This document shows, piece by piece, positions 34,001 to 62,470 of a DNA stretch of 64,000 bases. This DNA is from Haliotis asinina. Taxonomy: Eukaryota > Mollusca > Gastropoda > Lepetellida > Haliotidae. The notes under the pieces are model-generated. The model searched no databases. It saw only the letters and a list, made by a program, of their open reading frames with translations, and had not been told where the DNA came from. How positions within the stretch are numbered: the first letter of the stretch is position 1; each line of letters opens with the position of its first letter. Position numbers and translations under genes: made by a program. Location of the stretch: NCBI RefSeq assembly GCF_037392515.1, contig NC_090285.1:6699501-6763500 (forward strand), read 5' to 3'.

Positions 34001-36384
34001 GATATATAGCAAAAGGGGTGTCACGAAAGTAGGGTTTACAGAGTATAAACAACAGTGATAGGCTGATTAGGCCATTACTGGCAGATGATGTTTATTATAT
34101 AGTGAGGGTTTGCCTTGTATAGACTTGCAGGCTGAAGCATATACTTGGACAGGTGAAGAATGCAGAGTTTCACAACTGTTTCTCCTTACATGACTATGAA
34201 CTTACATGATGTGATAAACGCATTGTTTAACATTACATCTTACCAAATTAGTATGGTGATGCAATGTTCCCCAGACGAACGCCTCCCCCCAGAACAAGCC
34301 CAAGGTGTGGGAGAAACAAAAGAAGAAAGGCAAGAAGGGAGGAGCCAAGCAGAAGAAGAAGACCAAGCAAGCCAACCAATGGAAGTCTGCAGCTCCACAT
34401 GCCAAATCTGATGCTGCACAGAATAATGGGGTAACTGTGCTATATTTGTTGGTTATTACATAGGATAACTGACCTGTGTTAAATGTTTACCTCACAAGAT
34501 AACAAGTGTGATCCTGTACTTGTTGATTATAATAACCCTACAGTCATGGACGTGTCCACAGGGTAATAAGGTAACTGTCATGCCCTTGTCAGTCAGTTTA
34601 AGTGAGTGACAGATTGTAAGTCCTATTCTTGTTTTTTAACAGTGTCAGGTGATGGTGTTAAGCATCTTTCGGCATTGCATCTGTATTGGGCAACATTCCT
34701 ATTCATGAAATCCTAACAGGTTACCTTGACATAAAAAGTGGGAAGGACTGTTTCCTCTTAACTGTCACATTGTACATGTTTTTCTCCTGTTGTTGCACAG
34801 AAAACAGCCAAAGCAGCAGAGGCAGCAGCCGAAGGAGCAGATGATGATGAACATGAAGACGTGCCCGAGAAGAAGCCACAAGACTCGCATGTTGAGGAGT
34901 CAGAGGATGAGGAGAGAAATGAGTCCGAGGAGGAACAAGAAGAGACTAAGAAGCCTGTCAAATCAGAGGATGAGGAGAAGGATGAAGATGAGGAGGAGGA
35001 CTGGTCAAAATTCCAGGAAGAATCGAGGAAAGAAAACTCTCTGGAAACCAAGAGCAAGGAGAGCCACATCGTTCACTGCCCGTATTTCCCTACAGTAAGT
35101 TGTATAACATGCTCTAACACCCTCATAACAGCCAATCGTGGAATGATTCTTTTTAGATATTGATTTGTGTTGTCAGAAGAGACCGAGGATTGAAACTTAA
35201 ATTCTGCCCTCTTTGGACATGTTCAATAGCCATATAAGATCTAAATCAGTTGAAATATGAATGGAACTGTTTGATTTTGGGGAGTGATATGGGAATAAGT
35301 GATGCCTACTAGTAGTGTTGTAGTTTCGTTTATCTTGGTTCCTTCTAACCTGTGTTGGTTGTTAGTGGTGACTTTGTGGATCTGCCAGCTGATTGCACAT
35401 AATATCCATCAATCCATCACTTTATTGTCTAATCAGAGGTCACCATCCTACATTTGGACTAGTGCTGAGTGTTGTTTATACAAGCGAATGAAAACAAGGC
35501 AGTGAATAGGCAAACTGATGAAGGAGATAACTACTTGACGCTGTTGTTTGGAATACTGAAAAGGGAGATAACCCCTGGACTGTGTTGTTGGTAGTTTTGA
35601 TAAATTAACCATGATGAAATGTCCCTGTCACTGTTGGTGTGACTATGGAAGAAAGAGTTAAAGCCTTGATAGAGGAGAAAGATAAGTCCTTAACATTGTT
35701 GTTTGTAATAATCAACTCATGTTGTTTGGTGGAAACGCTGAACTCCTTGTCATTCTTGTTGAGTGTAATGTACTGGGTGATAACTTTTTGGTTTTATTAT
35801 TTGGAATGCTAAACAGGGAGCTAACTGCTTGTCATTTTTGTTGCAGGAGAAGCAGGAGTGGTGGTGGTTGTACGTGGCTGACAGGAAACACCATAACCTC
35901 ATCACTGCCCCTGTACAGATTTGTAGCCTGAAGAAGGATGAAGAGGTCCAGCTCAAGTTCTCAGCCCCACGTAAACCTGGCTCATACCAGTACTCTGTCA
36001 TCCTGCGCTCAGACTCATATCTGCTTGACTTTGACAAAATATCCAACATCAAGGTACGTAATTACTTCCTGCATAGGTATTTCCTCGTGCAGTGCAGCTG
36101 AAATCAAGTCTTCACATGACCAAGTCTTGTAGTTCAGAAAAGAATGGATTCTTGTTATGCTAGTCTAATGTAGCTGAAATATGCGTGTCATTAAGCATTG
36201 ATTGACTCAAGGCTACATCTTAGACTGAATACTACTATTGCAGCTGGACGTGAAGGAGGCAAAGGTTGTGTCTGACCACCCACAGTGGGACATCTCGGAC
36301 GACGAGGCAGAGAAGGAGGATGGTGCGGGAGAAGACACAGAGGAGGATAGCGACTACTCTTCTGAGGAGGATGACGATGATTAG
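16072..36384 (+). CDS. SEC63: SEC63 homolog, ER translocon J-protein, 18 coding exons, about 777 aa
   Basis: Exons: 16072-16195, 27422-27527, 28031-28145, 28366-28481, 28639-28700, 29089-29147, 29596-29646, 29994-30102, 30665-30759, 31265-31400, 31715-31807, 32463-32608, 32830-32977, 33509-33684, 34275-34430, 34801-35094, 35847-36053, 36244-36384. All introns are GT-AG, phases agree throughout, and the total is 2334 bp. The first residues ([20 protein letters not shown]) match animal SEC63. Membrane segments fall at about 16-36, 79-93 and 195-211. The lumenal J domain (about 103-170) keeps its HPD at 134-136, the site that stimulates BiP. A Sec63/Brl domain follows, then a Lys-rich and Glu-rich linker (exons 15-16), a beta-sandwich with [12 protein letters not shown], and an acidic tail EEDDDD, which in other species contacts Sec62. 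SEC63 works with Sec61/Sec62 in post-translational import. Intron 1 (11.2 kb) hosts a DIRS-like element in the same orientation. Confidence 0.97.
16196..20423. other. SEC63 intron 1, left part
   Basis: This is AT-rich intron. The only repeat-like signal is a perfect B-box-like GGATTCGAATCCC at 17403-17415 within a probable SINE remnant. Frames such as 19472-19684 and 19992-20240 have no recognised motif. A short run of AAAGTCC units lies at about 20225-20247. Confidence 0.5.
17365..17430 (+). repeat. probable tRNA-SINE remnant with B box
   Basis: GGTGTGGATTCGAATCCC is a good tRNA TpsiC-arm/B-box match, but no A box or cloverleaf is found upstream. It is therefore read as a SINE fragment rather than a tRNA gene. 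Confidence 0.3.
20424..20641 (+). repeat. left inverted terminal repeat of the DIRS-like element
   Basis: About 215 bp, from ATTCTTTTTCATAGAG to CCAGCAAAACACTTCC, are repeated nearly exactly in reverse complement at 26712-26950. The copies diverge by only a few bases in the shared part. The right copy is about 20 bp longer on its outer side. Confidence 0.9.
21076..23107 (+). mobile_element. gag-like region of the DIRS-like element
   Basis: A GC-rich stretch with overlapping open frames, the longest at 21417-22499, encodes Ser/Gly/Pro-rich and then acidic sequence, with a Gln/Lys-rich basic end ([10 protein letters not shown]...[11 protein letters not shown]). The position before the reverse transcriptase fits the gag-like first frame of DIRS elements. 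At 21130-21250 there is a Cys-rich CKSC...C..C...H pattern. No structural homology can be claimed by eye. Confidence 0.6.
23125..24620 (+). mobile_element. reverse transcriptase and RNase H-like region of the DIRS-like element
   Basis: The long open frame at 23125-24438 holds classic DIRS reverse transcriptase blocks: [45 protein letters not shown] and the catalytic YLDDWLL. RNase H-like motifs follow at 24285-24610: [21 protein letters not shown] and NVRADALSR. The family is known to place reverse transcriptase and recombinase in overlapping frames. Confidence 0.9.
23589..26099 (+). mobile_element. open frame bearing the tyrosine recombinase of the DIRS-like element
   Basis: An 836-codon open frame overlaps the reverse transcriptase frame. 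The recombinase domain is roughly 25060-26060. It shows the catalytic Arg in [11 protein letters not shown], the HxxR pair in [11 protein letters not shown] and the nucleophile Tyr in IRHYQLD. This enzyme replaces the DDE integrase of ordinary LTR elements and inserts a circular intermediate by site-specific-like recombination. Confidence 0.9.
26105..26145 (+). repeat. short tandem repeat after the recombinase frame
   Basis: About 2.5 copies of CATTTGACGAACGAT lie a few bases past the recombinase stop, within the element's 3' untranslated region. Confidence 0.7.
26573..26672 (+). repeat. internal complementary region of the DIRS-like element
   Basis: This block is the complement of the left end (ACCCCAAGGAGGATCTCTAT then GAAAAAGAAT) joined directly to the complement of the right end (CGAACAAACCTGTAGAGG then ATTCTTTGAATAGAG). 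Because both ends begin with the same stem, the block itself folds into a hairpin. Such a region is diagnostic of DIRS-1-like elements and is thought to template completion and circularisation of the cDNA. Confidence 0.9.
26712..26950 (-). repeat. right inverted terminal repeat of the DIRS-like element
   Basis: This is the reverse complement of 20424-20641, from GGAAGTGTTTTGCTGG to TACCCCAAGGAGGACTC, with an extra outer segment ending CTACAGGTTTGTTCG. Confidence 0.9.
26951..27421. other. SEC63 intron 1, right part, with a duplicated SINE-core fragment
   Basis: Two copies of CACTGGATTGTCTGGTTT-like sequence about 48 bp apart (27150-27225) resemble the type A SINE core but lack its ends. A T/G-rich stretch follows at 27265-27330. 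Confidence 0.4.
27607..27833 (+). mobile_element. SINE-like repeat, type A
   Basis: A diverged copy running from CCCATGAAGATCCAG through GATCACTGGATCATCTGG to CAGCTAACTAACC, in SEC63 intron 2. Confidence 0.65.
30412..30654 (+). mobile_element. SINE-like repeat, type A, abutting a splice acceptor
   Basis: A diverged type A copy (GATTTGGGTTAGAATTGGTC ... GGAATATTGCTAAGTGTGG ... ACTCACTCAC) ends about 10 bp before SEC63 coding exon 9 at 30665. Its (TCAC)n tail forms the upstream part of the pyrimidine-rich tract of that acceptor. Confidence 0.7.
32165..32310 (-). mobile_element. SINE-like repeat, type B, diverged
   Basis: On the minus strand a decayed tRNA-like head (GTAGTTTAATGTGTAATGTG) is followed by GACCTAGGATCGATTCCCAC and a worn body ending in CAGCATAAAACTTTAATCAC. 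It lies in SEC63 intron 11. Confidence 0.5.
33168..33300 (+). mobile_element. SINE-like repeat fragment, type A, strongly diverged
   Basis: GCTTGCTGACTTGGTGGGCA and TCTGGATTGTCTGGTT match the type A core. The ends are missing. It lies in SEC63 intron 13. Confidence 0.45.
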
Positions 36385-40015: not shown

Positions 40016-40615
40016 TGCATGCTGTACTACATGACCAGGACTAGTCATGTATGGAGTAGCTGCTGTACTACATGACCAGGACTAGTAATGCATGGAGTAG
40101 CTGCTGTACTACATGACCAGGACTAGTCATGCATGGAGTAGCTTCTGTACCACATGACCAGGACTAGTCATGCATGGAGTAGCTTCTGTACCACATGACC
40201 AGGACTAGTCATGCATGGAGTAGCTGCTGTACTACGTGACCAGGACTAGTCATGCATGGAGAAGCTGCTGTACCATGTGACCAGGACTAGTCATGCATGG
40301 AGTAGCTGCTGTACCACGTGACCAGGACTAGTCATGCATGGAGTAGCTGCTGTACCACGTGACCAGGACTAGTCATGCATGGAGTAGCTTCTGTACCACG
40401 TGACCAGGACTAGTCATGTATGGAATACCTCTGTAGCTACTGTACCATGTGACTATAGCCAATCATGCCTGCAGTAGTTGCTGGATCACATGACCATGGC
40501 TTTTCATGCATGCAGTAGTTGCTGTATCATGTCACCAAATGCATACAGTGGTTGCTGTCCCACATGATCAGAACTAGCCACGCATGGAGTAGCTGCTGTA
40601 TTGTCTAGTACCATG
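40016..40615. repeat. 41-bp minisatellite, about 10 good copies plus decayed copies
   Basis: The unit reads GCTGCTGTACCACGTGACC followed by AGGACTAGTCATGCATGGAGTA, about 41 bp. About ten close copies run from 40016 to 40435, and four worse copies continue to about 40615. Units differ mainly at TACTACATG/TACCACGTG and GCT/CTT. Several units carry a CACGTG E-box and the palindrome ATGCAT. Confidence 0.85.
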
Positions 40616-42134: not shown

Positions 42135-45100
42135 CTAGTGAGCAACAATCGGCTGATTAGGGTTGTGATGGAGTGTGGGAGGTAAGCTGGGGCGTTCCTC
42201 CAACTTGTCATACTCCAGGTGAAACTCTTTTGCCACTTTCCGCCAGTTCTGTGCGTCAAAGAAGTAGTATGTTCCCCTCTCATACGTGTTTGTTTTGACG
42301 ATGGGATCCATACCCGGTGCCCGTGTCATCCACACCCTCTCCTCCTTGTGGTACCTCCACTCTCGACTGTGACTGAAATCATCACACAAGGGAAATAATA
42401 ATTATATAGGATCAACTTATATAATCATATTATTGTGTTTGCTGATTAAAGCCACATCTAGAAATAGTCAAGATCTATCATGGCCATCTGTTAATACTTT
42501 ACACTGACCAGAAGTGATGCATAGTTGATATTATACAAACAACTGTGCCACAATACCAAGAGCTTAAGTATATGACCCAGAAAACTGCCTCATGCTAACT
42601 AACTTTGATTGGTTATTGCAACAACTTCAAAACCCAAACACTAACATCAGTAAAAAGTGAGTGAGTTTGGTATTACGTCACTTTTATCAATATACCAGAA
42701 TAGGCTTCACACACTACGCATGTGAGGAATCAAACCAAGGTCTTTGGCATGCCTCCTCACACCCCATCAGTAAAAAGACTACAGATTGCTACAGACACGG
42801 TCTAACATTTCTCAGTTAGGCAAAGATGTGTTTCCAATACATATGTGATGTATTTAACAACCCACAACAGTGACAGCTGAGGCAGTACTTAAAAAACTCA
42901 ATCCCTTCATATGTCCATATTACCGATGCTATGTCATCAGAGCAACATATTATGCAAACTGACAAATAAAACATTTCCTATGAAATATTCAAAAACAATT
43001 CAAAGACTTTGCAGGGTGTGACTCACAGTTCTGCTGCAGCCGCCAACTGCAACACATCCCCACCATTCATGTAGAACAAGAAGAACAACAAGTCCTCTCC
43101 ATACCGGTTCAGCTTGATCGGAGCCAGCTGCATGACAAACAACACAATCATGTCAACAGAACATCAATTTGCATTTACAAATTGGCAGGATGAAGAACGA
43201 CAAGTCCTCTCCGTACCAGTACGAATTGCTTTTATTTGTTCACAACTTCTTTATTGCAATAGATGCAAAGTTTCCCTGAAGATGCTATCGCTGTTATCAA
43301 GCAAGATACACCAAAACATCAAATCTACTGCTATAAAGATTACTTCAAAAGAAATTAAAAGAAACTGCTCTCCTAATAAACCCACTACCTTCCCAGCCTT
43401 CAGTTTCACACATATTCAAACATACACAATCATATCAGTGTCAGGTTGACAACATTTCATATTGTCCCTTTTATCACTAGCATAACCTCTCCAAACTCAC
43501 CTTTTCCCTGATGAAAATGTTTGTGAGATACTCTGCAGGCACATGGAAATCTGAAAGTAAACAGGAGGTTCTCTTAAATCTGCCATCTGGACAAACATTT
43601 CTGTTATTGACTTAAAACAGACACCTCATTGGATTTGTATTTGCCTTGACTTTGAACAGCAAGTGGATCCTCTTAGTATCTGAAATATACCTATCAGGCC
43701 AAGCAGACAGGTGGTTTAAATGTGACTAACACATCTCAAAATAACAGTCCTATGTCATCTCATTTGACTCGGGACTATCTTGAACAACAAAACAAGAATA
43801 TCCTGTACAACTCACACATAGTGCAGTTCTTGTTTAAGCATTCAGTCATACCTCTATCTCCATAACGCTCAAAACCATGAATTCATTTGTTAGGTTTGCC
43901 CTAAATGTGTCACCACATGTCGCCAGCGTCTGTAACTGCTGTCATCTGTTGTCACAACTTACCAATATCTTGTGGCCGACAGGGTGCATCTGCCCAGGGG
44001 GACTGAAATGTACTGTAGAGGTTTCTGGAACAAAATAAGCAAAAAATGTCACAGTCAGTTGACGACATGCTACAACAATTTATGGCAATTTCAAGCAATG
44101 CAGCAACTTTAAACAAGACAGACACCAGTAGTGGTTGAACGCCTTATGAATGAAGTAACTGAATCTTACTCTTAAAGGAAGGTTACACAAACGTTACGAC
44201 TATTTATATACATAGTGAGATGAAGAAGCTGTTTCATGGGTATATCTGTTGTCATTAAATACACTCATGCACACTACACCACCCAAATCCATTCAAGTAA
44301 AGATATATACAAAGTAGGTTTACAAATATCTACCTGGTCAAACAAAGCAAACATTGCCATCATCAGATAATGAAATATGACCTACAAGATCAAACAATGT
44401 AAACATTGTCATCAGACAATGTAAACATGACTTACATGATCAAACAATGTAAACATTGTCATCGTCAAGGTAAACGTGACCTACAAGATCAAACAATGTA
44501 ATATGCCCTACATGAGCAAAGCAAACACTGTCATCGTCAAATGAAATGTACATAACTTAAATGATCAAACAATGTAAACATCACCTACATGATCGAACAA
44601 TGTGAACATGACCTACATTATCAAACAATGTGAACACTGTCAACATCAAATGTAGTAAACATTGTCTAAATGATCAAACTATGTGTAATGTAAACATTGC
44701 CAGTCAGGAGAAATATTGAAAAATATTGATGAGTCACATAAAAAAAGATATTAAACAATACCAACACATTGTCAAACATTGACAAATAATGTGAAGCAAG
44801 GTCAGTGTCAGAACAACCAGACAATGTCAAACAACAATTGCAGACAATTTCAAACAAGGCCAAACAGAACAACCATTCCAGACAATGTCAAACAGAACTA
44901 TAACTCCAGATAAAATCAAATAATGCCAACAATGCCAACAATACAGGCAACCATTTTTGACATTGCAAAACAATATGCACAATGTCAAACAAGGGTAACC
45001 ATTCTTGACATTGCTAAACAGTCACAATGTCAAATGCAGGCAGTCATTCTTGACAATGCTAAACAGTCATAATGCCAAACATGAGCAGCCATACTTGACA

Positions 45101-48100
45101 ATGGCAACAATGTTGAACAATGCCAGCCAACAATGAACGTGTATGCAAAAAAAAACCATCACAGTCAGTTTAGTAAGCTAATGGCCAGTACTGCAGTACA
45201 CGATTTACTTCAGAACATGACACCAATCATCACAGTTTCACATAACATATTGATGTACGGTGAAAGAGAAACAACAAAGATATACGACATAGATCAGAAT
45301 GTATATTGGTTTATGAACATGATCCACATACTGACACACAATCACTGGCACTCACTCATACATAGAAACACAATGACTAGAAGACAGGCGAACAGATTAT
45401 GCACAATCAACACTGACCGACAGATCCTTTTAAATGGAAAGTTAAGGGGTAAGCATTATATTCCTATACCACACAGATAATGGAAGGGAACGCTTCTCAC
45501 ACAAATGAACAAGTAATTTCCCACACATAAACATGTATCAAATCCACAGACCTCACAAAAACAGAAGGGGAACAACTCTGACATCTAGTACATGTATTTT
45601 CATTGGGTGTCTATCTGTGCACCAGCACCTGGGAATTTCCATGTGACATGAAGAACTAGACAATGAGCTTTTCCAAAGTGAGCCACGCATATAATGATAA
45701 TGACAACTATCAACCCCTCCCTAGCATTGAGAGAAAAGGAAAGAAAGTCTAGTCTGCTACATGAGTCTGAGGAAACAGATCTGAACTGAATACGACAAGC
45801 AGTCTACCAAGTTGAAGTTTTAAGTAAAGCATCTCTAATACTTCAATAATTGTCATGAATAATGAAAACCACCAATCTTCTTGACCATTTCAGGCCAAAA
45901 ATTGAGCAGTGAGTATTACACAGAGCATCATATGTTGAATGACAAATGCTGGAAAACACTCATTCCATCCATGATGGCATGAAATGCTTATGGATAACAA
46001 CTTCATTCTTTGCAACAATACTCACAATCTACTTCTTGCCATTTACCTGAAGAAGAGGCAGAAGTAGATTGGTAACCTTAAACATCTCATTACACAAGTT
46101 AACAAAGTTTATATGCATAAAAATTTCACGCCTTCATGTTTGTCAAACTTCGGAACTTATACCAAAGACTTCATCATGACCAAACATAAGGTACCACATT
46201 TCCAAGTAGTGTTTTAACCTGTTTAGGACCAACCTGTGATCCATTCATACAGCTGTCACAAAGTGCACATGAAGCTACATGTTACAAAGTGCATATGAAG
46301 CAATCCCTGACACAACAATTTCTGGAACTCACAGCCTAACTATATTGTTAATGGCTACAGCAAGAGACATACCAGAGGACTAGCACTTCACAGTCTTCAC
46401 CTGCTGAACACAAGGAACTATGGCCTACCACCATCCATGAACCAGCTGGACAAAATAGGGCTTACTGTAGACAGTGTTAATTGTGTCAGATGTTAGTGCA
46501 CGACAGGAATACAGACGTAGAAGGACAACAGTCGCAGAGAGATTAAGTAAGCAAACACGGAACACCTCACACACCAAATTTTGAAACAAAAATTCAATAG
46601 AGAAGATAGTGAGAAAGCATATTGGGTCAGATTGATCATTTGGAAAATTTAGAAATAATTCTTCAGGTCCTAGATTAAACTTGGAGCTGCACACCTACCC
46701 TTCAGCTGTGATTACTGTTAGTCTGATGGTATTTTATCAAGGAAATCTACCCCTGACTAATATGCTTTACTAATTATGTTTTGCAAGGGAAATGACACTG
46801 TAAAGGAGACAATGACAGTTTGTTGAATAGATGTTTCCGGAGACTGTAGTGAGCATTCCAGCAGAAACAATGGTAAATGAAGTTAGTTTGAGAATAATGG
46901 TCAGGCCTACCTCTTAGAGCTGCATAGAGAAAGAAGCAATGATCAGAACATGATTATCTTAATTATTGCAATTATTGACACATCAACGAAAGTTTTACAA
47001 TGCAGGGTCCAGACTACCACTTCCTCAGACAGCCATGTTAACAGCAGTGAAAGGTGTGCAAAGGGTAAGTCAGTCTCCAGCGGAGGATGTGTATTTCATT
47101 GACAGATGTGTTTCAAAGATGATAGTCATTGTGAGTGAAAACAGTCTCTGCAGGACTTCATTCTTGACCATGACATAAGAAAAATGTTTGATGGATAGAA
47201 AACTATAAAAAATTATCATGAAGTAATGTTTACATGAAAGTAATACAAATGAAACAAAGCAAGAACTGAAGCACTGGCCAATCAGCTTAAGGAAATGCAT
47301 GATGACTGCACACACAGACATGGAGGAATCAGTGTGCACAACACATGCAACCAAACCATACCAGCCAAGCCAAGACACCATCCTGACAATAATTCCAGGA
47401 CTAATATCAGTGCTGAAGTTAACACAGACTATCAGTTACCTGCACAATATCTACAAAAATATGACGACCAGTTCATGGACAGATTCTAGCTACCAAAAAC
47501 AATCCTAAACTCAGCGAGTTCATGACCTGGTTGTACCCACTGCGAAATAGCAAAAGGTTAGTGCAGCTACAAACTGTTACAAAACCCTATGAAAAAGACA
47601 ATACTTTGGCTTTAACTTTACACATTTAATATGAAAAAAAATTTTAAAAAGGCTATAATTTTCTATGTAATTATCATGTAAATAAAGGTCTATTTTCATG
47701 TCTGTCCTGAAGGATATAAAGAATTATTGGCAGGATATATAGAATTAGTGGCACACTGTAACATAGTGGTTATTGAAAACATCCATGAATGACACCCCCA
47801 GCAGGTGCCCCGATGCAGGTAACTTGGGAATGCTGACAAAGCACACAGTTGCTTAAATTGAAAGGCCAGGGCAAGTTTGCAAGGAGCAGATACTGGTGAG
47901 ACAACTTACTCAGGTGAGTTGAGATTGAGGCCCAATGTTGTGAGATCAATCCCAGGTGCTAAAGCAACCAAGTTGGGGTCGTTCTCGGATGCCCGTATAA
48001 ACGTGAGGAGACCCACGATGCCAAACTGATCTGTAACCATGCCTGGCGGGATATTGGAGACTGTGCCTGTATTGGAAAAAGATACATAAACACATGGGTG

Positions 48101-51100
48101 TATTAAACAGGATGACAATAACAGACGTAAATAAACATTGCTTCAATTCATATAATAGATAGATCAGGAAGTTCTTTTGTCCACAAACTGCAAGATATTA
48201 ACTACTTAAAGGTCACATGCAACGTAAACCACAACTTCGCAGATTCTGATACCTTTCGGTATACACTTACCGAAATAAAGCATCACAAATGCCAATTCAA
48301 CCTATAAAGTTGAAAAAAAACGCGATGAAAAAAGAAACCTGCGAAATCGGATTCACTAAATTTCCCCAAGCGCTGGTGTGTGTGTGTGTGTGGGGGTGGG
48401 TGTGTGTGTGTGTGGGTGTGTGTGTGTGTGTGTGTGTGTGTGTTGGGGGGGGGGGAGAAAGTGGTGTCAACAGCTAGGCTGCCCATACCTCATGCGCAGT
48501 GAATAGGTTTGCGGCGCTTGAAACAGTATGTCTGCCTGGAGCATGAGGTTGTGAGCAGTAGTCTTATCTTGGTTGTGTACACAAACAAGTAAATAATCTA
48601 CTCATAACATAAAAAAACTTGTTCATCGTGGTAAGCAGCCTCTGCCACAGAGAAAGCTCAATTTCTGGTTTATTGACACCTATATGTCTGCCTGCTTGTC
48701 TGCTAAAGAGAACATGCAATACACAGCTTCAGTCATTGAACTTAACACCTATCAGGCTACATGCCATAAACAAAATAAATTGATTTATGACTCGTGCACC
48801 TGAGTCTTGTCTCTGCCACATTATTTAATGAGGCAGGTGTGATACTTGTACACATGACATGTTTTTATGTCTGTGGGTTGCAAACAAACTACATCCATTT
48901 TTCATGGGTGATAAGATCTGACGGAAGCTGGTGCAAACTGTTGTCAATTTCAAATCCTGCTTTGTACTTGGACAAATGAGTTTCCAGCCACGCAGTAGTT
49001 CATTTTCTGTATTGAGATGATTTTTATTGGATCAAACACAAATTCAGAGAACATGTATTTACAAAACCCAACATCTCTATATATACATTCTTTATGGATA
49101 ACAACTTCTTCTACTGTATATGATTTTGTCTGACAACAGAATATGAATTCATACTGAAACGACGCATCAAGTACAATAAAAGAAGTTGTTATCCACAAAG
49201 AATCTTACTTTCTTGTGACTCGCTGTACTTCTAAAATGCCCATCAAACAGATCATCTTTCTGTACACACAATGAACCCTCAGTATATCAGCAAATGAAAC
49301 TGCCAAACCGTCGTTACGCTTGAGTGCACACTGCCCGTTATGACTGGGGTCGGTTTCCCGAGTGCTTCGTTTCGAGAGAAGTAAGCCCAAGTACAAAATA
49401 TTGCACTTTTGAATCGTGATTGTATGCTTATAATTTTGTTTATTTGTTTTTTACAAGCAGCAATGTATATCATATGTCATGAATAAGTGATAATTGTGTT
49501 TTAATTATGTTTGATTTTTTTGTTGCATGTGACCTTTAAAATAAATTCTGAAGAGATCCTCTTATTCACTAACCATCATAGTTTGTAGCTACTCCTGTTT
49601 GAACAAGACAAAAATGATAATCTAAATACAGTTTATTTCAGCAGCAGAAATTATGAATAGAGAAAGGGATCAAAATTATTTTTCCCAGGTGACTCCAAAA
49701 TTCCTGCCCAACTGCATGCTGTTCTAACTACTGTGAGGCACAGGGTCACTCACCATCAGGGTGTGTCTGAATGCCTCTCTTTGGTTGAGATGATTTGTCG
49801 GAGGGTTTGTCTTTGCTGTTCACCGACTCGAATGTTCCTGGAGCAGGCTGCAACAATACTCACTCATGTCACTGACACCCTGAACAGACATATCACTAAT
49901 TCACTGGCTTCAGGTGGATGTCAAAAGTACTTATGCATCAAGGCATATTCTGGACCAGACATCACTCTACTTCCCACAATATCCCATTTGGATCAGACAT
50001 TGCACTACTTCCCGTGATATCTCATCTGGACCAGACATCACTCTACTTCCCACAATATCCCATCTGGATCAGACATTGCACTACTTCCCGTGATATCTCA
50101 TCTGGATCAGACATTGCACTACTGCCTGCAATATCTCATCTGGATCAGACATTGCACTACTTCCCGTGATATCCCATTTAAATCAGACATCACTCTTGTT
50201 CCAACAATATTAAATCTGAACATGAATTCGCTCGGTACACTAAATATCCCATCTGAACTTGACTTCACTTTTGTTACCTCATTTTCCTACCCGAACCTAA
50301 CCTAAATCCTGTTCCCTTATTATTCCATCTGACCCTAACCTCACTCTTGTTCCCTCAATATCCCATCTGAACCTGACCTCACTCTGTTCCCTAAATATTC
50401 CATCTGAATTTGGCCAAAGTCTTGTTCCCTAAATATCCTATCTAAATCTGACCTTACACTTGTTCCCTCCATATCCCAACTGAACCAGAATTTACTCCTA
50501 TTCAATAAATATCCCACCTGAACCTAACAAAAGTCTTGTTCCCAAAACATCCTATCTGAATCTAACTGTACTTTTCTTTCCTCAATATCTCCTCTGAATC
50601 AGATCTTGCTCTTGTTCTGTCACCTTCCACTGACAACTCCAGATCAGCCCTTTAATCCCCCCAGGCCTAATGACTAAAACCTCTCCCCAACATGCTGGTC
50701 AGTCTGTCAGTACATGTATTACCCAAGCAAAGTATTTTCATCAAAGCAAATTTACATGGCTCATATTGAGACAAGTTAACATACTTGCCCCAGGCGCAAC
50801 CTAAGATGACAACCTACTTGCATCAGCCAGATTCTAGCTGCACTTTTCATTGCATTAAGTAGATGCAAACATTTAGATGTTTTGTTCAGAAGTTTACCCA
50901 CTCAAAAATGTATTTGCACCTGGTGCAAGTTAGCCTAAGAACTAGGATGCGATTTGTAATATTGAGCTGCACCAGTGCAAGTCACACTGCACTAAATTGA
51001 GCCCTGATTTACCATGGAAGATCATTTACTTACCATGTAAGGATTTGGAGGACCAAACAGAGCACTAACAGTTTTCCTTGTGGAGTCATTTGCCGATGAT

Positions 51101-54100
51101 GCTGGGGGATCTGGACCAAAACAACAATGTTCTTACAGTGAGAGATAAAATCTAGTACAGTGCACCTAGTAATATTTCAGCTGTATGCCGGAAACTTATT
51201 ACATTTTCAGGTTTTGAAGTGTTGTATTGTTATACATACATATCCAGGCATTGTACAGAACTGTAACACTGTGTTACTAACATGTTTGTTGTTAAGGCCT
51301 TGTGACTATATAGTGATTGATACTTTGAGCATAGATTGCTGGGGCATGCTCAGCATGAAGCTTGATATGAAACAATGCACTTGGTTGGTTGTTTAATGCC
51401 GCACTCAGCAACTGTCCACCTATGTGTTGGTAGTCAATATATAATAAAGTCTGGACCAGACAAACCAGAGATCAACAACATCGATCTATGCAATTGGGAT
51501 ACGACAACAGGACAAACAAGCCAGGAGCCTGACCACCTGATCCCGTTAGTTTCCTCTTACAATAAACATGGGTTATTGAAGACCAGTTGTAACCTTGACC
51601 TTCACATGTTGACAATGTACTTACTTGAGGATCCAGGCAGGGCAGGGAACTCCTCCTGGGTGATATTGAACTCGGGGGTGGGGTCCGGAACAGCTTTGCT
51701 GACCATACCTACTGTAGGCAAACAAATACCCTCTTTAGTCACCGCGGCTTTTGTATACACACTGGAAACCTACTGTAGGCAAACAAATACCCTCTTTAGT
51801 CACCGCAGCTTTTGTATACACACTGGAAACCTACTGTAGGCAAACAAATACCCTCTTCAGTCACCGCGGGCTTTTGTATACACACTGGAAACCTACTGTA
51901 GGCAAACAAATACCCTCTTTAGTCACCGCGGGCTTTTGTATACACACTGGAAACCTACTGTAGGCAAACAAGTACCCTCTTTAGTCACCGCAGCTTTTGT
52001 ATACACACTGGAAACCTACTGTAGGCAAACAAATACCCTCTTCAGTCACCGTGGGCTTTTGTATACACACTGGAAACCTACTGTAGGCAAACAAATACCC
52101 TCTTTAGTCACCGCAGCTTTTGTATACACACTGGAAACCTACTGTAGGCAAACAAATACCCTCTTTAGTCACCGCGGGCTTTTGTATACACACTGGAAAC
52201 CTACTGTAGGCAAACAAATACCCTCTTTAGTCACTGTGGGCTTTTGTATACACACTGGAAACCTACTGTAGGCAAACAAGTACCCTCTTCAGTCACCGTG
52301 GGCTTTTGTATACACACTGGAAACCTACTGTAGGCAAACAAATACCCTCTTTAGTCACCGCGGGCTTTTGTATACACACTGGAAACCTACTGTAGGCAAA
52401 CAAATACCCTCTTTAGTCACCGTGGGCTTTTGTATACACACTGGAAACCTACTGTAGGCAAACAAACACCCTCTTCAGTCACCGCGGGCTTTTGTATACA
52501 CACTGGAAACCTACTGTAGGCAAACAAATACCCTCTTCAGTCACCGCGGGCTTTTGTATACACACTGGAAACCTACTGTAGGCAAACAAATACCCTCTTC
52601 AGTCACCGCGGGCTTTTGAAAACACACTGGAAACCTACTGTAGGCAAACAAATACCCTCTTTAGTCACCGCGGGCTTTTGTATACACACTGGAAACCTAC
52701 TGTAGGCAAACAAATACCCTCTTCAGTCACCGTGGGCTTTTGTATACACACTGGAAACCTACTGTAGGCAAACAAATACCCTCTTTAGTCACCGCAGCTT
52801 TTGTATACACACTGGAAACCTACTGTAGGCAAACAAATACCCTCTTCAGTCACCGCGGGCTTTTGTATACACACTGGAAACCTACTGTAGGCAAACAAAT
52901 ACCCTCTTCAGTCACCGCGGGCTTTTGTATACACACTGGAAACCTACTGTAGGCAAACAAATACCCTCTTCAGTCACCGCGGGCTTTTGTATACACACTG
53001 GAAACCTACTGTAGGCAAACAAATACCCTCTTTAGTCACCGCGGGCTTTTGTATACACACTGGAAACCTACTGTAGGCAAACAAATACCCTCTTCAGTCA
53101 CCACGGGCTTTTGTATACACACTGGAAACCTACTGTAGGCAAACAAATACCCTCTTCAGTCACCGCGGGCTTTTGTATACACACTGGAAACCTACTGTAG
53201 GCAAACAAATACCCTCTTCAGTCACCGTGGGCTTTTGAAAACACACTGGAAACCTACTGTAGGCAAACAAATACCCTCTTCAGTCACCGTGGGCTTTTGT
53301 ATACACACTGGAAACCTACTGTAGGCAAACAAATACCCTCTTCAGTCACCGCGGGCTTTTGTATACACACTGGAAACCTACTGTAGGCAAACAAATACCC
53401 TCTTTAGTCACCGTGGGCTTTTGTATACACACTGGAAACCTACTGTAGGCAAACAAATACCCTCTTTAGTCACCGCGGGCTTTTGTATACACACTGGAAA
53501 CCTACTGTAGGCAAACAAATACCCTCTTTAGTCACCGCGGGCTTTTGTATACACACTGGAAACCTACTGTAGGCAAACAAATACCCTCTTTAGTCACCGT
53601 GGGCTTTTGTATACACACTGGAAACCTACGATAGGCAAACAAGTACCCTCTTTAGTCACCGCAGCTTTTGTATACACACTGGAAACCTACTGTAGGCAAA
53701 CAAATACCCTCTTTAGTCACCGCGGGCTTTTGTATACACACTGGAAACCTACTGTAGGCAAACAAATACCCTCTTTAGTCACCGCAGCTTTTGTATACAC
53801 ACTGGAAACTGGCATCATGAACATCTGCATCAGGTAAACTCCCACGACTACACCAATAACACATTCAGATGATCACAGAAAATCTACAAAAACATAATAC
53901 TAGTTATCTGTACTTTCTAATTTAAAGTAAAATTATTGACTTTATACATTATAAGTCTGCCTAATCCATGATTTGGGAAAGGATAACAAACAAACAATCA
54001 CATAATGGAAACATTACACCACAGCATTAACAGTTAGTCATAGTTACAACACACTCAAACACACCACTTGTTTCACTTCACAATATGCATTGTATATAAT

Positions 54101-57100
54101 ATGCATTTTAATTGATATATACAGCAAGTTTGTTATATTCATCAGTTTATTATAAGCATATTTGTTATAAACATAGCTCATTGTAAATTATTTCATATAT
54201 TAAATTCAAAAGTAGATTGTAATAAGAGCTTTGATAAATACTAATGTGCCTGGAGAAAGGAAAACTTCAAAAGTAAATTGCAGCAAAAGCTTTGACATGT
54301 ACTCATTGTGACTGAAGAAAGATATGATCTTTTAATTTGACAGGAGTGACTCATCACCATTTCACTCCTGCATGGACAGAGAGAAAGTCTTAGGCCAATG
54401 ATGAGGCAGTTAACTCATAGACTGATAGAGAATACAGGGTGGCTACATCAAGAACTGAAGCAGAGATGACGTTCTGGGGAAAATAGACAGATAAAGGAAG
54501 CATGGCAATAGTGCAAAGTAACTCCGCAGAAAACTAGGTAAGGTTGCCATAGTTTTAATTATCACAAGACCTTAAAACTGATATTTTTCTAAATTTTCCT
54601 TTTTTTTAGAAACTATTGTGGATTTTCATGACAAGATGGCAAAAGCTCTCTGCTTAACTTTCACAATCAGGAGAGGCTATTTGTGACAAATGGTTTTGGA
54701 GCTGGTCATATTTTCAGACAAATAAATATGTCTTGTTTGTCAGTTTGAGGAATGATCTATTTTTAGATACATGATACACATGACTCACAAACTCTTTCTT
54801 CTCAGTATCTGCATATATTTTATGATTCATGGGGTCATCTTTCACACTAAATATAAAACACTTATCTCAACATGAACCGAAAAGCTGGTATGTCATCAAA
54901 AAAAGATGTCAAAAAGAGCTTGATCCATTGGCTAGATCTTACCATAGTTTCGAGCGGTTGGCATGGGATTGGGAGGGATGTTAGATCTGTTGCTTAATGA
55001 AGGAAATTCCGACAAATCCAGCGCTGGATGGTTGTTCTCGTTACCTGTGGAACATAAGGTGAATAAGGTGTCACAGAGAATTACTGTACACCCACAGCAG
55101 ACTACCTTCTCAAATCCAAAAAATGCACCAAGATTGAAAACCCTTTTATCAAATATATGTGTATATATACAAATTCTGAATCAACAAAGCAAAACAGCAG
55201 TCCTAAATCTCACTTTGGTGAGATTCTATTCAGCATCCAAATCTTTCTTTCAGTGTTTTACGTTTGTAATCAGTGACAATGTGTTTAAATAGTATAGCTT
55301 CTGCTTCATTGGCAGAGAGATCAATGATGTCCCCTAAGATATCACAATAATTTACAAAGCAATCGACAATTAAAATACTGCATACCTTGCCTGCTCCCCG
55401 AAAACCCGAAACTGTTTGTGACACTAGTGATTGGTCCAGCAGCACTGCAACACACAGGACACACAGTGTAGTAGGTGGGGGACATCAGTGTACACACATC
55501 ACCATAAATATCACAGGTGGCTTATGCAGAGTGGGAAACAGTGGGTAATTGTTAGTTGGAACAAACCACATTGTTTTTAGATGGTGAGAATTTTCAGTAT
55601 ACTGCAATAGCCGATGCAAAAGCATATAGAGTGATACATACTGCAAGAATTTATTTTATCAAAAAACTACTGTTAGTCAATTTGATGTTTGATTCATAAA
55701 GCAAAAACACAATAAAATGACTATGTTTGACTATTTGGCACAAATGAAACAAGGAAAAGAACACTTCATTATCAACACAGTGATTACTAGTTTCAGCTAA
55801 TTTCTCTATTTTCAAAAAAAAAAGCCCTGGTATTTTAGACAGCAGTTTGACCTGGTCAGGACATACAAGAGATCACTGGTCACTTACGACAAAACATGCA
55901 GAACAGTCAGATCCAAGACAATGCGGAACATTTGAACAAAAATTCAAAATACATCTTTAAACCAAACTTGTGTGAAAAAAGGAAATATCCTAAGACTTCT
56001 GAGTGTTAGGAAGTTTTCCATATGCATGTCAAAATATCAGTTTTTCAATCAGCATATCACAATTCTTTCATGTCTGAACCAGGTTATTTCAGCAAACTTG
56101 TTCTATTGCTCAGCATTATGAGTTTGTAGAGTGAAATAATACCCAAAAGCATGAGGTTATATCCCTTCATTACAAACAGTGGTCCAAGCATTAACAGAAC
56201 AATATACACATATAATATATATATGGTAATATAAACTTTCGATATATATGGTAATACACACTTTATAATGTAAATATTAAGAAACATGTATACTATTGCC
56301 ATTTACTGTTTTGTTTAGTCTAAAGTTTCCTTAGAGTTCACTAGAAGTAGAAGTGAAAAGTATATCAGTACTTTCTCGATCAATAGTTTGCCTTGTCCTA
56401 AGTGGCAGTGTTATACATTGTGTAACATTTCACGCCATACCTTGAATTGTAATATTAATGAGGTTCAGTGATGTGCAATAAAGAACTGAATTCATAAAGA
56501 AATGTTGTTTGATTCAATTAATGTGCCAGTGAATCACAACAGGACAAGTATACATTTGTAAACAGTAAGTTCTCAGGCAATAAGAAAGGGATAGGAAAAG
56601 TTTTTTTATAGCCTAACACATTTCACAGGTAACCCCAGACATTGGTACAGACGTGTTGTTGTTAAATGTGGGCGCCATTACCTTCCGAATGCTGAGGATA
56701 AAGTTGTCCGCTTCTGGAGATTATTGAGAGGTTGGGAGGACTGGTTCTGACCTAGCACACTGCGGGGTCCGATCACTGACATGCTGCAAGGATCAAATAA
56801 CTCACTTGCACATCATGAAAATATGGGCTGTTGCTTACAGTTTCACACAGTCCTCACATATCCAAGCTGTACTGCACTGGCCTGTAATCCTGTCTGAGCC
56901 AGACAGTCCAATGATTGATATTACAAGTAGTAAACTATGTTGTCATTCTGATGTCACTCACACAAGTCACTAGTCTGATCATGGAGTAAGAGAGTGAGTT
57001 TGTGAATATAGTTTTACACAGCTTTGAGCAATATTTCAGCAATATCAGGATGGGGCACCACTACAAATGAGCTTCACACATTGCACCATGTGGGGAATCA

Positions 57101-60046
57101 AACCCAGATCTTCAGCTAGACAAGCAAACCTCAACCATTAGACTACCACTTCCAGATCTTGTAACTCAATATGTAGTCTCTTACGAACTAATTAGGTTGC
57201 TGGGGATCAATTTTAATCCTGAATACCAATGGGGTTTACAAATGTGAAACCAATTTGCTTTGAGATATGGTGAGACTGGCTGGGAATTGGCATTGATTCT
57301 ACATGTAACTACTGACTACACAGCACCTGTTGGGTGAGTGTTGAGGCTGTTGTATACTGATGGGAAAGTTGGGGTTCATGCTCGTCGGCGTGATGTGGCC
57401 ACCACTGCTGTTGCGTCCCGGGAACTGACTGTTACCAATACTTCGTTGGGGCAGGCCTGGAATCAAGAAACACAGCTTTCTACTGTTCCATCTCCCAATC
57501 ATTAACCTTGTTGGTCAAAGTTTACCTTTAGCTGGCAAAATATTGTCACTATGTTTAAAACCTTTACATGAATGTAACAAACAGAAAGGCAAGATTCAAG
57601 AAAAGTACTTTAAGAGGAATACATGTCAGATGGTAGCTATAACATCTGATGACTCACCCTGGCTGTAGAAGTTGTTTCCAAACCCAGACAGTTGAGACGG
57701 GGATTGAGATGTCATCTGTCACAGAGAGACATCGATACCAGAAACACAGTCTATCAATCATTTCCAACACAGATAATGAAGATCTTGTTCTACCTTTCAG
57801 TTATTACAGAGAAGCCATCTGTTGGAGAATACTGTGCCATAATGAACCAAAAGATAATGATGCATCGATATGACAATTCCAAGATCTCATCTGAAATTGT
57901 TCACTCAGGTTTGTGCCATACATTGAGTTGATCAGATAAAAAGAAACAACAAATTCTTTGCATCTGCTTACTCAACACCTTTAATAGCTAAGAATTTTGT
58001 GACTAGTTCAGTTGTTCAATATATCTAACATGCACAATTTCCTCTTCAATAATCAAACATAAGTACTCTCATCACTCTAAATGGAAAACAACCAGATTTC
58101 TTTTCTTTCATCATTGGTCAAAATTCCAGTGATTTCCTGGGCGGTAAAGGCAAAAATATTTCACTTGTCTGTCATTTGCCTAAGTGTTTTGGGGATGAAT
58201 GACTAAAGGTGAGTTATGTCTCTAAAAAATTAGGCGTTCCCAAAGGGCACTGAGAATATTTTTTATTGATGCCATTTCAATATTTACCCTTGGCTTGCTT
58301 CTTGCTTTGATGACAGCATATATGTAAATATCTAAATCTAGACTAGACAATTCAGATATTAATTTCATGAGCAACTATCCATGGGTGACATCAGCCATCA
58401 CTCAGTCTGATTATCCAATCCCTAAAGTTAAATCTTCCAGCCACTATTGGTTCCTCAGGAATTTTCTAACATGTAATCGCCATGGGAACACAAAAATGAG
58501 GAGTAAATGTTGTTACTGACCCGCACCTCCTTGTCTGGTCGAAACACAGACTGATTGAAGTACAAGCTGGGATCATCCTCGTCTGTCTCGAACATGCCCT
58601 GCACAAAAAAACACAAACTTGTTTACTTTATAATGTTTACTTGCCCATATGGCCAAGTCAAGAAAAGATCATAAGGATATCCTGAAACATTTTACAGATC
58701 CATTCATCAAAGCAGACTCAAGGCTACGACTGTGTAACCATGGTAACTAAAACTATCTAATGCTTTTGTTGCAGTTTAATGTCACGCTCAGCCATATTCC
58801 AAAATGATGACAACATGTTCATGTTTGAGTCAGAACAAGAACGTCCTGTGAACGCATTAATCAATGATGCATCAGGTTATGATGACATATCAACCAAGTC
58901 ACTGAACAACCACTGCTAAGGACTTAAGCCTGAGCCAGGACATGCATATTACTCAGATTTCCAATGTGATACTGCTTGATGAGATTCTTACTCTTTCCAG
59001 CATTTGCGAGTTTCGTTTCACGCCACTCTCAGCAACATTCCAGCTGTATACTGGCCAGACAATTTAGTGATCAACAGCATGGGCTTTGATCTATGCAGTT
59101 GGGAACTGATGTCAACCAAGTCAGTGAGCCTGACCACCCAATCCTGTTAATCACCTCTCACAACGAGCATGGGTTTGTGAAAGCCAGTATATTCTGACCT
59201 GGCCCTTCATGGGTCCACTAACTTGGGGGAACCAACTGCAAACCTTATGCATATAAACTGTGCTAGGATCTAGCAGCAATGTTCTACGTATAAATATTGT
59301 GCATGTGAACATCTGTGTTCTGTTAAGAATTCCCGTATTTTCAACATGTTTAATTATTTTTTGAACTCAAAACAAAAATCTTTTCAACGTTTCGAATTTG
59401 TTTTACAATACATCAGTTCATGTGTAAACAGCACCTTTGGAAAATTTCCCAACAGTATGGGATATTTTGTGAAATCTAGTGAGTCTTAATTTATGATGAG
59501 CTGTTTATTTGATCATGATTTACAACTACCATAGAGTTCTGGGGACCTACAGCCTGTTCAGCTCCACCTGAGCAACTCTATATGCATGGCCTGGGAGGTC
59601 AAAAGGCACGAACAGCAGGTCAAGTTAACTTCATTCACTAGGGGAGCAGAGAATTCCATTGATGATGTGTTTGCACGAAACATGCATACATCGGAAACTT
59701 TAAACCATCTTTAGCTTCTGTGAATGCATGAGTATTCACTTGACCAGGTCAAGCTGAACAAGCTGTATTTCAACATAGAATCACCTTGTGGACCAGTGGG
59801 CCAGGACAGACAGACAGACAGACATACTGTTTAGACTGCAACTGGGATTGTGCCTGGTGAGATACTTTTCAGCATTATATACTCTGGATTTTTGTGTAAC
59901 ACTGACGAATTCAATACTCGGTTCTAGGTGGGCTTCTACTCACATGCTTTCTTGTTTGGGATTTTGCTTGTGGCATGCCAATCATGCCGAAGTTCCTGCG
60001 TGGACCTGGGGATGGATCTGTAACATTCTTCTTGTTCATGTTGAAT
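42135..60046 (-). CDS. CNOT2: CNOT2 homolog, CCR4-NOT complex subunit 2, 15 coding exons, about 493 aa
   Basis: Exons in transcript order: 60046-59944 (ATG at 60039), 58598-58527, 57715-57658, 57456-57327, 56783-56682, 55444-55386, 55044-54943, 51708-51625, 51110-51034, 49847-49754, 48066-47910, 44024-43963, 43550-43501, 43127-43027, 42372-42135. Phases agree at every junction, total 1482 bp. The Ser/Asn/Pro-rich first half keeps short CNOT2 motifs: FETDEDDPSLYFNQS, GLPQRS, LDLSEFPSL, EEFPALPGSS, KRGIQTHPDG. The NOT-box domain (about 300-485) is very close to vertebrate CNOT2: PPGMVTDQFGIVGLLTFIR, DLTTLGLNLNSPENLY, CRPQDIDFHVPAEYLTNI, IKLNRYGEDLLFF, EWRYHKEERVWMTRAPGM, TYERGTYYFFD, WRKVAKEFHLEYDKLEERP. 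CNOT2 binds CNOT3 and CNOT1 and stabilises the deadenylase that shortens mRNA poly(A) tails. The ATG exon starts with an acceptor, so an upstream exon exists. The exon 2 donor may be at 58527 or 58521. Confidence 0.96.
42655..42772 (-). mobile_element. SINE-like repeat, type B, diverged
   Basis: On the minus strand a worn head with TTGGTTTGATTCCTCACATG (B-box-like) is followed by a shortened body ending in AATACCAAACTCACTCAC. It lies in the last CNOT2 intron. Confidence 0.5.
44330..45125. repeat. decayed tandem repeat rich in CAAACAATGT
   Basis: Loose units of about 30-35 bp such as GATCAAACAATGTAAACAT with TGTCATC and ACCTACA fill 44.33-44.70 kb. They grade into units such as CAGACAATGTCAAAC up to 45.1 kb. 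Copies vary in length, so this is an old array in the CNOT2 intron between 47910 and 44024. Confidence 0.7.
45126..47909. other. CNOT2 intron, remaining part
   Basis: No gene is recognised. Frames at 45133-45480, 46425-46694 and 46966-47178 lack motifs. A TTATGGATAACAACTTC piece at about 45988 matches one arm of the small hairpin at 49087-49203. Confidence 0.4.
48374..48461. repeat. (GT)n microsatellite with G-runs
   Basis: An interrupted GT run with GGGGGTGGG insertions ends in a run of about ten G. Alternating purine-pyrimidine sequence plus G-runs could form Z-DNA or G-quadruplex. The matching frames on both strands are artefacts of the repeat. Confidence 0.85.
49087..49203. mobile_element. 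nested 117-bp hairpin element
   Basis: ATTCTTTATGGATAACAACT (then TCTT) at 49087 is inverted at 49180-49203 as AAGAAGTTGTTATCC then ACAAAGAAT, giving 24-bp arms with one mismatch. It lies inside the TTAA-flanked element, so it inserted later or was carried by it. One arm alone recurs near 45988. Confidence 0.65.
49930..50620. repeat. minisatellite, about 36-37 bp unit, good then decayed copies
   Basis: ATCTCATCTGGATCAGACAT followed by TGCACTACTTCCCGTGAT repeats closely from 49930 to 50175. Worse copies based on TCCCATCTGAACCTGACC and TCACTCTTGTTCCCT continue to about 50620. It fills part of the CNOT2 intron between 51034 and 49847. Confidence 0.8.
51386..51612 (-). mobile_element. SINE-like repeat, type A
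   Basis: A diverged copy reading on the minus strand from ATGTGAAGGTCAAGG through TTGTTGATCTCTGGTTTGTC to TGCTGAGTGCGGCATTAAAC. It ends about 13 bp from the donor of the CNOT2 exon 51708-51625. Confidence 0.65.
51708..53809 (-). repeat. 61-62-bp minisatellite, about 34 copies, containing the CNOT2 splice acceptor
   Basis: The unit on the gene strand starts GGTTTCCAGTGTGTATACAA, continues through AAGCCCGCGGTGACTAAAGA and ends GGGTATTTGTTTGCCTACAG plus TAG. The array spans 2102 bp and fills two thirds of the intron between exons 54943 and 51708. Copies are highly uniform; variants are GCAG/GCGGG (the source of 61- versus 62-bp units), TTTAG/TTCAG, AAATAC/AAGTAC and GTAT/GAAA. The exon-proximal unit ends TTTGTTTGCCTACAGTAG and is the actual 3' splice site of the exon at 51708. 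Open frames that run across two or three units are artefacts. Confidence 0.95.
53810..54942. other. rest of the CNOT2 intron beside the minisatellite
   Basis: AT-rich intron with no recognised repeat or gene. Confidence 0.4.
55445..56681. other. CNOT2 intron, nothing recognised
   Basis: AT-rich, with a short AT microsatellite-like stretch (ATATATATGGTAATA) near 56215-56260. No repeat family or gene is identified. Confidence 0.4.
56990..57155 (-). mobile_element. tRNA-derived SINE-like repeat, type B
   Basis: On the minus strand GTGGTAGTCTAATGGTTGAG (A box) and TCTGGGTTTGATTCCCCACA (B box) are well kept. The body passes through GATATTGCTGAAATATTGCT to AAAACTATATTCACAAACTC. This is the clearest tRNA head among type B copies. 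It lies in the CNOT2 intron between 57327 and 56783. Confidence 0.75.
57716..58520. other. CNOT2 intron, nothing recognised
   Basis: No repeat family is identified. The frames at 57649-57873 and 57692-57931 overlap a CNOT2 exon on the other strand and are shadows. Confidence 0.4.
59005..59217 (-). mobile_element. SINE-like repeat, type A
   Basis: On the minus strand it runs from GGACCCATGAAGGGCCAGGT to TGTTGATCACTAAATTGTCT and GGAATGTTGCTGAGAGTGGC. A weaker, partial relative may lie just before it at about 58770-58950. It sits in the first coding intron of CNOT2. Confidence 0.7.
59805..59825. repeat. (GACA)n microsatellite
   Basis: About five units of GACA in a row in the first coding intron of CNOT2. 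Confidence 0.8.
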
Positions 60047-61486: not shown

Positions 61487-62470
61487 AACTACAGCCAGCA
61501 ACTAGTAACACCATGGCTAGGGCCACCAACTAGTAACACCATGGCTAGAGCTAACAACTAGTAACAAAAAGACTAGAGCCAGCCACTAGTAACACCTGGT
61601 AACACAATGGCTAAAGCCAACAACTAGTAACAGAGAGACTAGAGCCAGCAATTAGAAGCTCCATGATGTCTAGAGCCAGCAGATAATAACACCGTGGCTA
61701 GACCCACCAACTAGTAACACCATGGCTAGAGCCAACAACTAGTAACACCACAACTACAGTCAGCAAAGAGTAACACCATGACTAGAACCAACAACTAGCA
61801 ACACCATGACTAGAACCAGCAACTAGTAACACCATGACTAGAACCAGCAACTAGTAACACCATGACTAGAGCCAGCAACTAGTAACACCATGACTAGAAA
61901 CAGCAACTAGTGACACCATCACTAGAACCAACAATTGGTAACACCATGACCATAGCCAACAACTAGTAACCTCATGACTAGAGCCAGCAACTAGTAACAC
62001 CACAACTACAGTCAGCAAAGAGTAACACCATGACTAGAACCAACAACTAGCAACACCATGACTAGAACCAGCAACTAGTAACACCATGACTAGAACCAGC
62101 AACTAGTAACACCATGACTAGAACCAGCAACTAGAAACACCATGACTAGAGCCAGCAACTAGTAACACCATGACTAGAAACAGCAACTAGTGACACCATC
62201 ACTAGAACCAACAATTGGTAACACCATGACCATAGCCAACAACTAGTAATCTCATGACTAGAGCCAGCAACTAGTAACCTCATGACTAGAGCCAGCAACT
62301 AGTAACCTCATGACTAGAGCCAGCAACTAGTAACCTCATGACTAGTGCCAACAACTAGTAACCATATGACTAGAGGCAACAACTAGTAATCTCATGACTA
62401 GAGCCAACAACTAGTAACCTCATGACTAGAGCCAGCAACTAGTAACCTCATGAATAGAGCTAACATCATG
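61487..62470. repeat. 28-bp minisatellite, about 35 copies, with a 9-unit higher-order repeat
   Basis: The unit is AACACCATGACTAGAACC followed by AGCAACTAGT. Variants include ACCTCATG, GAGCC and CAACAACTAG. The order of variants from about 61746 recurs 252 bp (nine units) later at about 61998: the rare block CACCACAACTACAGTCAGCA appears in both, followed by the same series of variants with one extra unit in the second. This shows block duplication within the array. Confidence 0.9.

Follow-up and report, generated by a model that had tools for sequence, protein, structure and literature searches.

How did a splice acceptor come to stand dozens of times in a single intron, and what does this mean for the gene that carries it? 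The question arises on the minus strand of the window (the whole stretch of DNA analysed here, 64,000 nucleotides), which encodes CNOT2, a core component of the deadenylase complex CCR4-NOT. A human CNOT2 probe matches the exons, and a single open frame runs through the nine exons of our model, which starts after the N-terminal exons and extends from 55044 to a stop at 42135 (minus strand). Compared with solved structures, the translated C-terminal portion hits CNOT2 (4c0d_B) with E = 1.4e-108, against 5.1e-11 for the best CNOT3 match (4c0g_A). A CNOT2 peptide, queried with one extra residue at an exon join, matches Pfam NOT2_3_5_C at 1.2e-40. A sequence-only reading of this DNA had named the gene as CNOT2, and the exon frame and the protein matches bear this out.

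Exon A (54943–55044, minus strand, 102 nt) ends at the donor ATG/GTAAGA, where the slash marks the splice boundary. It is followed by an intron of 3231 nt (51712–54942, minus strand) and by exon B (51625–51711, minus strand, 87 nt, VGMVSKAVPDPTPEFNITQEEFPALPGSS). The exon after B, inferred at 51034–51110 (minus strand, 77 nt, NPPASSANDSTRKTV...), is required by the frame; it was chosen from two candidates by its frame fit and its resemblance to human CNOT2, the alternative being 68 nt long with the same donor. The exons from there to the stop codon lie at 49847–49754, 48066–47910, 44024–43963, 43550–43501, 43127–43027 and 42372–42135, all on the minus strand. A candidate N-terminal exon lies at 58607–58530 (minus strand), where FVQGMFETDEDDPSLYFNQSVFRPDK resembles human FVEGVDSDYHDENMYYSQSSMFPHR (tblastn E = 1.8).

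The intron between exons A and B is dominated by a minisatellite at 51709–53809 (minus strand), which makes up 65% of its length. The 34 head-to-tail units, of the form GTTTCC...CCTACAGTAG, comprise 27 of 62 bp and seven of 61 bp, and their consensus in the transcript sense is GTTTCCAGTGTGTATACAAAAGCCCGCGGTGACTAAAGAGGGTATTTGTTTGCCTACAGTAG. This confirms the 34-copy minisatellite that had been placed at 51708–53809. We distinguish 14 unit sequences, and over the 34 units the pairwise identity has a mean of 0.964 and a minimum of 0.855. The unit types are interspersed and identity stays flat with distance (0.961–0.969 over lags 1–11), a pattern expected of a homogenised array. A protein-coding repeat was considered and rejected, as the 61/62-bp period is not divisible by three.

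Both edges of the array are sharp. Writing the edge itself as a slash, the 5′ flank reads ATGATGCCA/GTTTCC and the 3′ end CAGTAG/GTATGG, so that the array passes directly into the exon at GTATGG, with no unique intron sequence between the two. The unit start and the exon have two letters in common, GT. When a 24-base piece of the unit is searched with up to three mismatches, all of its 34 matches in the window fall within the array (shuffle mean 0.00 over 100 shuffles). Two consensus units, compared by BLAST with the remainder of the window, give chance-level matches only, the longest being 17 bases at 88%, and no unit copy is found at another locus in the other 62 kb. The exact 24-base piece is also absent from viral contigs, a collection where little was expected.

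Which unit serves the exon? The last one (51709–51769, minus strand, 61 bp) has a sequence that occurs once, with the acceptor CAG at 51714–51712 and the exonic TAG at 51711–51709. Exon A ends TAT G, and a join at CAG/TAG gives TAT G/TA GGT ATG GTC, translated as Y-V-G-M-V. We take the human CNOT2 residues at this join to be YVGMV. Judged by frame and protein match, the CAG/TAG of the last unit is the predicted true CNOT2 acceptor. The sequence-only reading had likewise singled out the last unit, and the same two lines of evidence uphold this; its splice point was TAG/GT. Such a join keeps the frame, since CAGTAG is a NAGNAG acceptor and either choice does so, but it is 3 nt off and drops the V, and CAG/TAG appears the better supported of the two. 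Exon B then starts as TAG/GTATGG at 51711, with the true acceptor 3 nt upstream of the site first proposed.

Within the repeated unit lie a branch-point-like motif, a pyrimidine tract and CAG, followed by the three bases that open the exon; these are the whole exonic share of the unit (five bases with the common GT). CAG/TAG is intact in 33 of the 34 units, the true acceptor included, leaving 32 intact decoys; the remaining unit end, at 53626–53631 (minus strand), reads TCGTAG. TAG/GT is present in all 34, with no variable column there. The claim that every unit has both CAG and TAG/GT thus stands for the latter and fails in one unit for the former. At 23–27 nt before the AG we notice a branch-point-like GTGACTAAA in 19 units and GTGACTGAA in 15, whose role as branch point is suggested by position and by the usual consensus. 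The acceptor is middling, with a pyrimidine fraction of 0.62 against 0.44–0.81 over the eight modelled CNOT2 acceptors. The last unit is no more divergent than average (mean identity of 0.966 to the other units).

Repeats at intron/exon boundaries have been described in several animals. The excerpted text of two papers on amphioxus gives the name ‘mirages’ to tandem repeats spanning intron/exon boundaries, with cases in Adh3, the globins BflGb6 and BflGb9 and troponin C, and likens repeats of PGBD5 to them (PMC3087553, PMC3902484). According to the same excerpts, many units hold cryptic AG/GT signals, the data suggest that regular splicing is undisturbed, and length varies at the globin and Adh mirages (PMC3087553, PMC3902484). 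On these descriptions the CNOT2 array is alike in two respects: its unit spans the boundary (intron end, CAG, exonic TAG), and splice signals lie within the units, CAG/TAG being kept in 33 of 34. Adh3 units, quoted at 10–72 bp, bracket the 61–62 bp of CNOT2. BflGb6, in contrast, has three or six units of 150–160 bp, whereas the CNOT2 array has 34 copies of 61–62 bp and lies on the acceptor side. The mirage cases named in the excerpts are cephalochordate, whereas the host of the CNOT2 array is probably a mollusc.

In humans, the VNTR of ABCA7 intron 18 has a 25-bp unit in about 12 to 427 copies and begins with the exon 18 donor; array length and exon 19 skipping are reported to be correlated, and retention of a single unit is observed independently of length (PMC5954066). 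Like this VNTR, the CNOT2 minisatellite adjoins an exon, whose splice site lies inside the abutting unit. Unlike the CNOT2 array, which is on the acceptor side, the ABCA7 repeat is on the donor side and has a measured association with exon 19 skipping. Human segmental duplications show boundary internal tandem repeats, and minisatellite expansion can create introns (PMC2812944). Those repeats average 30-bp units in four copies, half of them within coding exons, which sets them apart from the CNOT2 array. In C. elegans, the CeRep25B minisatellite is over-represented near regions of multiple alternative splicing (PMC4039745). With mirages and the ABCA7 VNTR already described, the boundary array is a known kind, of which the CNOT2 array is a new example. 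Among the boundary repeats described in these excerpts, none is an acceptor-side array of this copy number. Within a limited open-licence literature we recognised no molluscan boundary minisatellite, the combined topic of molluscs, minisatellites and splice sites matching only PMC3902484.

We consider it likely that the CNOT2 array is a minisatellite of the mirage type, in which a junction segment was duplicated in tandem and the decoys go unused in most transcripts. A segment of about 62 bp, in which the 3′ end of the CNOT2 intron is joined to the three bases that open exon B, would have been duplicated in tandem, probably by slippage or unequal exchange at the 2 bp (GT) that the start of the unit shares with the exon. 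Subsequent expansion and homogenisation would have led to 34 copies, nearly all of them complete 3′ splice-site modules with branch-point-like motif, pyrimidine tract and CAG. The last copy alone would be used in most transcripts, and the others would remain as intronic decoys.

The array most likely arose by tandem duplication of the local intron/exon junction. Because the unit closes with the opening three bases of the exon and no unique spacer intervenes, growth from the acceptor-side junction, as the sequence-only reading had proposed, is the most likely course; that no relative of the unit exists elsewhere in the window is a further ground. A satellite or mobile element might instead have inserted at the intron end and then been adopted as acceptor, and the window is indeed rich in SINE pieces and minisatellites. 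Such an origin is highly improbable in our judgement, as the window holds no other copies of the unit and the end of the unit is made of the exon's own codon bases. No unique acceptor sequence is left between array and exon, so a foreign satellite would need to have supplied the acceptor itself. The exonic TAG falls within the codons GTA GGT (V-G), which match human CNOT2, and it is therefore most likely older than the array. Position by itself is weak evidence: among seven arrays set against 17 modelled junctions, one touches a junction and the next nearest is 102 nt off, yet in 10.6% of 20,000 random placements of the seven over 39–63 kb an array end lands no more than 5 nt from a junction. 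This test covers the seven larger arrays of that region; short, two-copy or GT repeats (44854–44920, 47711–47753, 48376–48443, 54127–54176, 56217–56264) were left out. As for the number of copies, a single assembled sequence stands behind the count, and real units could have been inflated or collapsed by assembly. We give hardly any credence to an artefact of this kind, because 14 distinct interspersed units in 61- and 62-bp forms are hard to obtain by simple stutter, though 34 may not be the exact number.

The window contains other repeats and elements. Within CNOT2, a minisatellite at 49949–50603 with a 38-bp period ends on the upstream side of the 49847 acceptor, 102 nt short of it. Others around the gene, at 40020–40600 (41-bp), 44338–44684 (28/49-bp) and 61488–62465 (28-bp), touch no modelled junction. 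A full-length SINE at 1869–2132 shares 97.7% identity, over 264 nt, with a query sequence that we take to be a common abalone or gastropod SINE. The window holds another 14 matches, a number of which belong to a single copy. Copies of the family are located at 1869–2132, 14013–13755, 30653–30457, 27817–27655, 51391–51569, 12870–12682, 59051–59170 and other places, and one diverged copy lies within the intron after CNOT2 exon B. A retroelement-like block with long ORFs occupies 20995–26099 (plus strand), with a GC content of 54–57% over 22–26 kb. Its ORF at 23008–24435 (plus strand) matches the reverse transcriptase family RVT_1 (E = 4.8e-19), while an 891-aa ORF (23424–26099) and a 405-aa ORF (21282–22496) have no Pfam match; the block presumably resembles a DIRS-type element. 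An inverted repeat at 49087–49203, with 38-nt arms that are 87% complementary and 41 nt apart, is perhaps the remnant of a small DNA transposon. An acidic, lysine-rich open frame at 34762–35163 (plus strand), without a Pfam match, is possibly an exon of another gene.

What would follow if a decoy were used? For all 32 intact decoys, computed read-through from the decoy acceptor adds 11–12 residues and then meets a stop. Leaky decoy use with read-through would thus end in a premature stop and probably in mRNA decay.

A decoy exon might also end at a donor inside the array. We scored donors with an approximate weight matrix, on which the seven modelled CNOT2 donors score 1.51 to 8.34 (1.51 for the weakest, 2.79–8.34 for the other six) and the exon B donor CAA/GTAAGT is fair at 5.31. 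The GAGG/GT site follows CAG/ at a distance of 43 or 44 nt, and TAG/ at 40 or 41 nt, and reads GAGGGTATTT in 30 of the 34 units. It scores −0.44 to −0.62 over the units, below all seven modelled donors. GAGG/GTATTT had been called a fair donor about 42 nt past the acceptor; it lies at 43/44 nt and, with a score of −0.44, is weak. Decoy exons that end there would measure 43 nt in 6 cases and 44 nt in the other 26, with a stop in 32 of 32. Better donors exist at GTGACT, namely ACG/GTGACT at 2.09 (8 units), GTG/GTGACT at 1.40 (1 unit) and GCG/GTGACT at 1.30 (24 units). With every unit scored, 2.09 is the highest value of any GT in the array. A GTGACT donor (1.30 to 2.09) follows 31 of the 32 decoys, giving frame-shifting exons of 31 nt in 25 and in-frame exons of 30 nt in 6. 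These 30-nt exons are open and encode VGFQCVYKSC or VGFQCVYKSR. Since ACG/GTGACT at 2.09 exceeds the weakest modelled donor at 1.51, donor score is no bar to decoy exons. The cryptic micro-exons suggested in the sequence-only reading are weakened where GAGG/GT is concerned; the better GTGACT donors are not mentioned there.

A putative effect of the array on CNOT2 splicing is plausible. In the simplest account, exon definition would select the last acceptor, the only one followed by a genuine exon whose donor is fair (CAA/GTAAGT, 5.31), and the remaining array would be near-neutral intron; ACG/GTGACT at 2.09 weakens this donor argument. Recursive splicing at TAG/GT was rejected as the main mechanism, the regenerated donor TAG/GTTTCC scoring −5.60, far under the modelled donors. 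RNA structure was rejected as well: the z-scores of three folded stretches of the array (−0.05, −0.33 and −1.00) and of the region around the exon A donor (−0.48) are not unusual. No known RNA family is found in the window at gathering thresholds.

The array might rather be a regulatory device, in which decoys would compete for the upstream donor and send transcripts to decay, so that array length would tune the level of CNOT2 or the skipping of exon B. Such a role would suit the 32 intact decoys, all of which meet a stop after 11–12 residues on read-through, and the GTGACT donors behind 31 of them. The precedents, as excerpted, point both ways. In human ABCA7 the length of a donor-containing VNTR tracks next-exon skipping and, inversely, expression, but retention of a single unit is constant across VNTR length (PMC5954066). 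CeRep25B of C. elegans is enriched close to sites of multiple alternative splicing decisions (PMC4039745), whereas the amphioxus mirages are reported without interference in regular splicing (PMC3087553, PMC3902484). Selection on the splice core is not apparent either: variable columns number 4 of 25 in the core and 8 of 37 elsewhere (P = 0.75), which is no depletion. A count of single cells makes the core less variable than the rest of the unit; columns and not cells were counted because variants are common to several units. That the array is a regulatory device seems to us unlikely. More doubtful still is a length-adjustable brake on CNOT2, in which more units would mean more decay and the 61-bp units would contribute ten-residue inserts before VGMV, copy number and unit type together shaping the output. 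In those units the 30-nt open exon ends GCG/GTGACT, and VGFQCVYKSC or VGFQCVYKSR would precede VGMV.

If the host is a mollusc, the CNOT2 array would be a possible mirage outside lancelets, and boundary minisatellites would recur across animals instead of being a lancelet peculiarity. Such recurrence, if true, bears on how introns lengthen and on how introns and exons are born. The CNOT2 locus is also a natural test case for the way in which splicing picks one among more than 30 near-identical acceptors in one intron.
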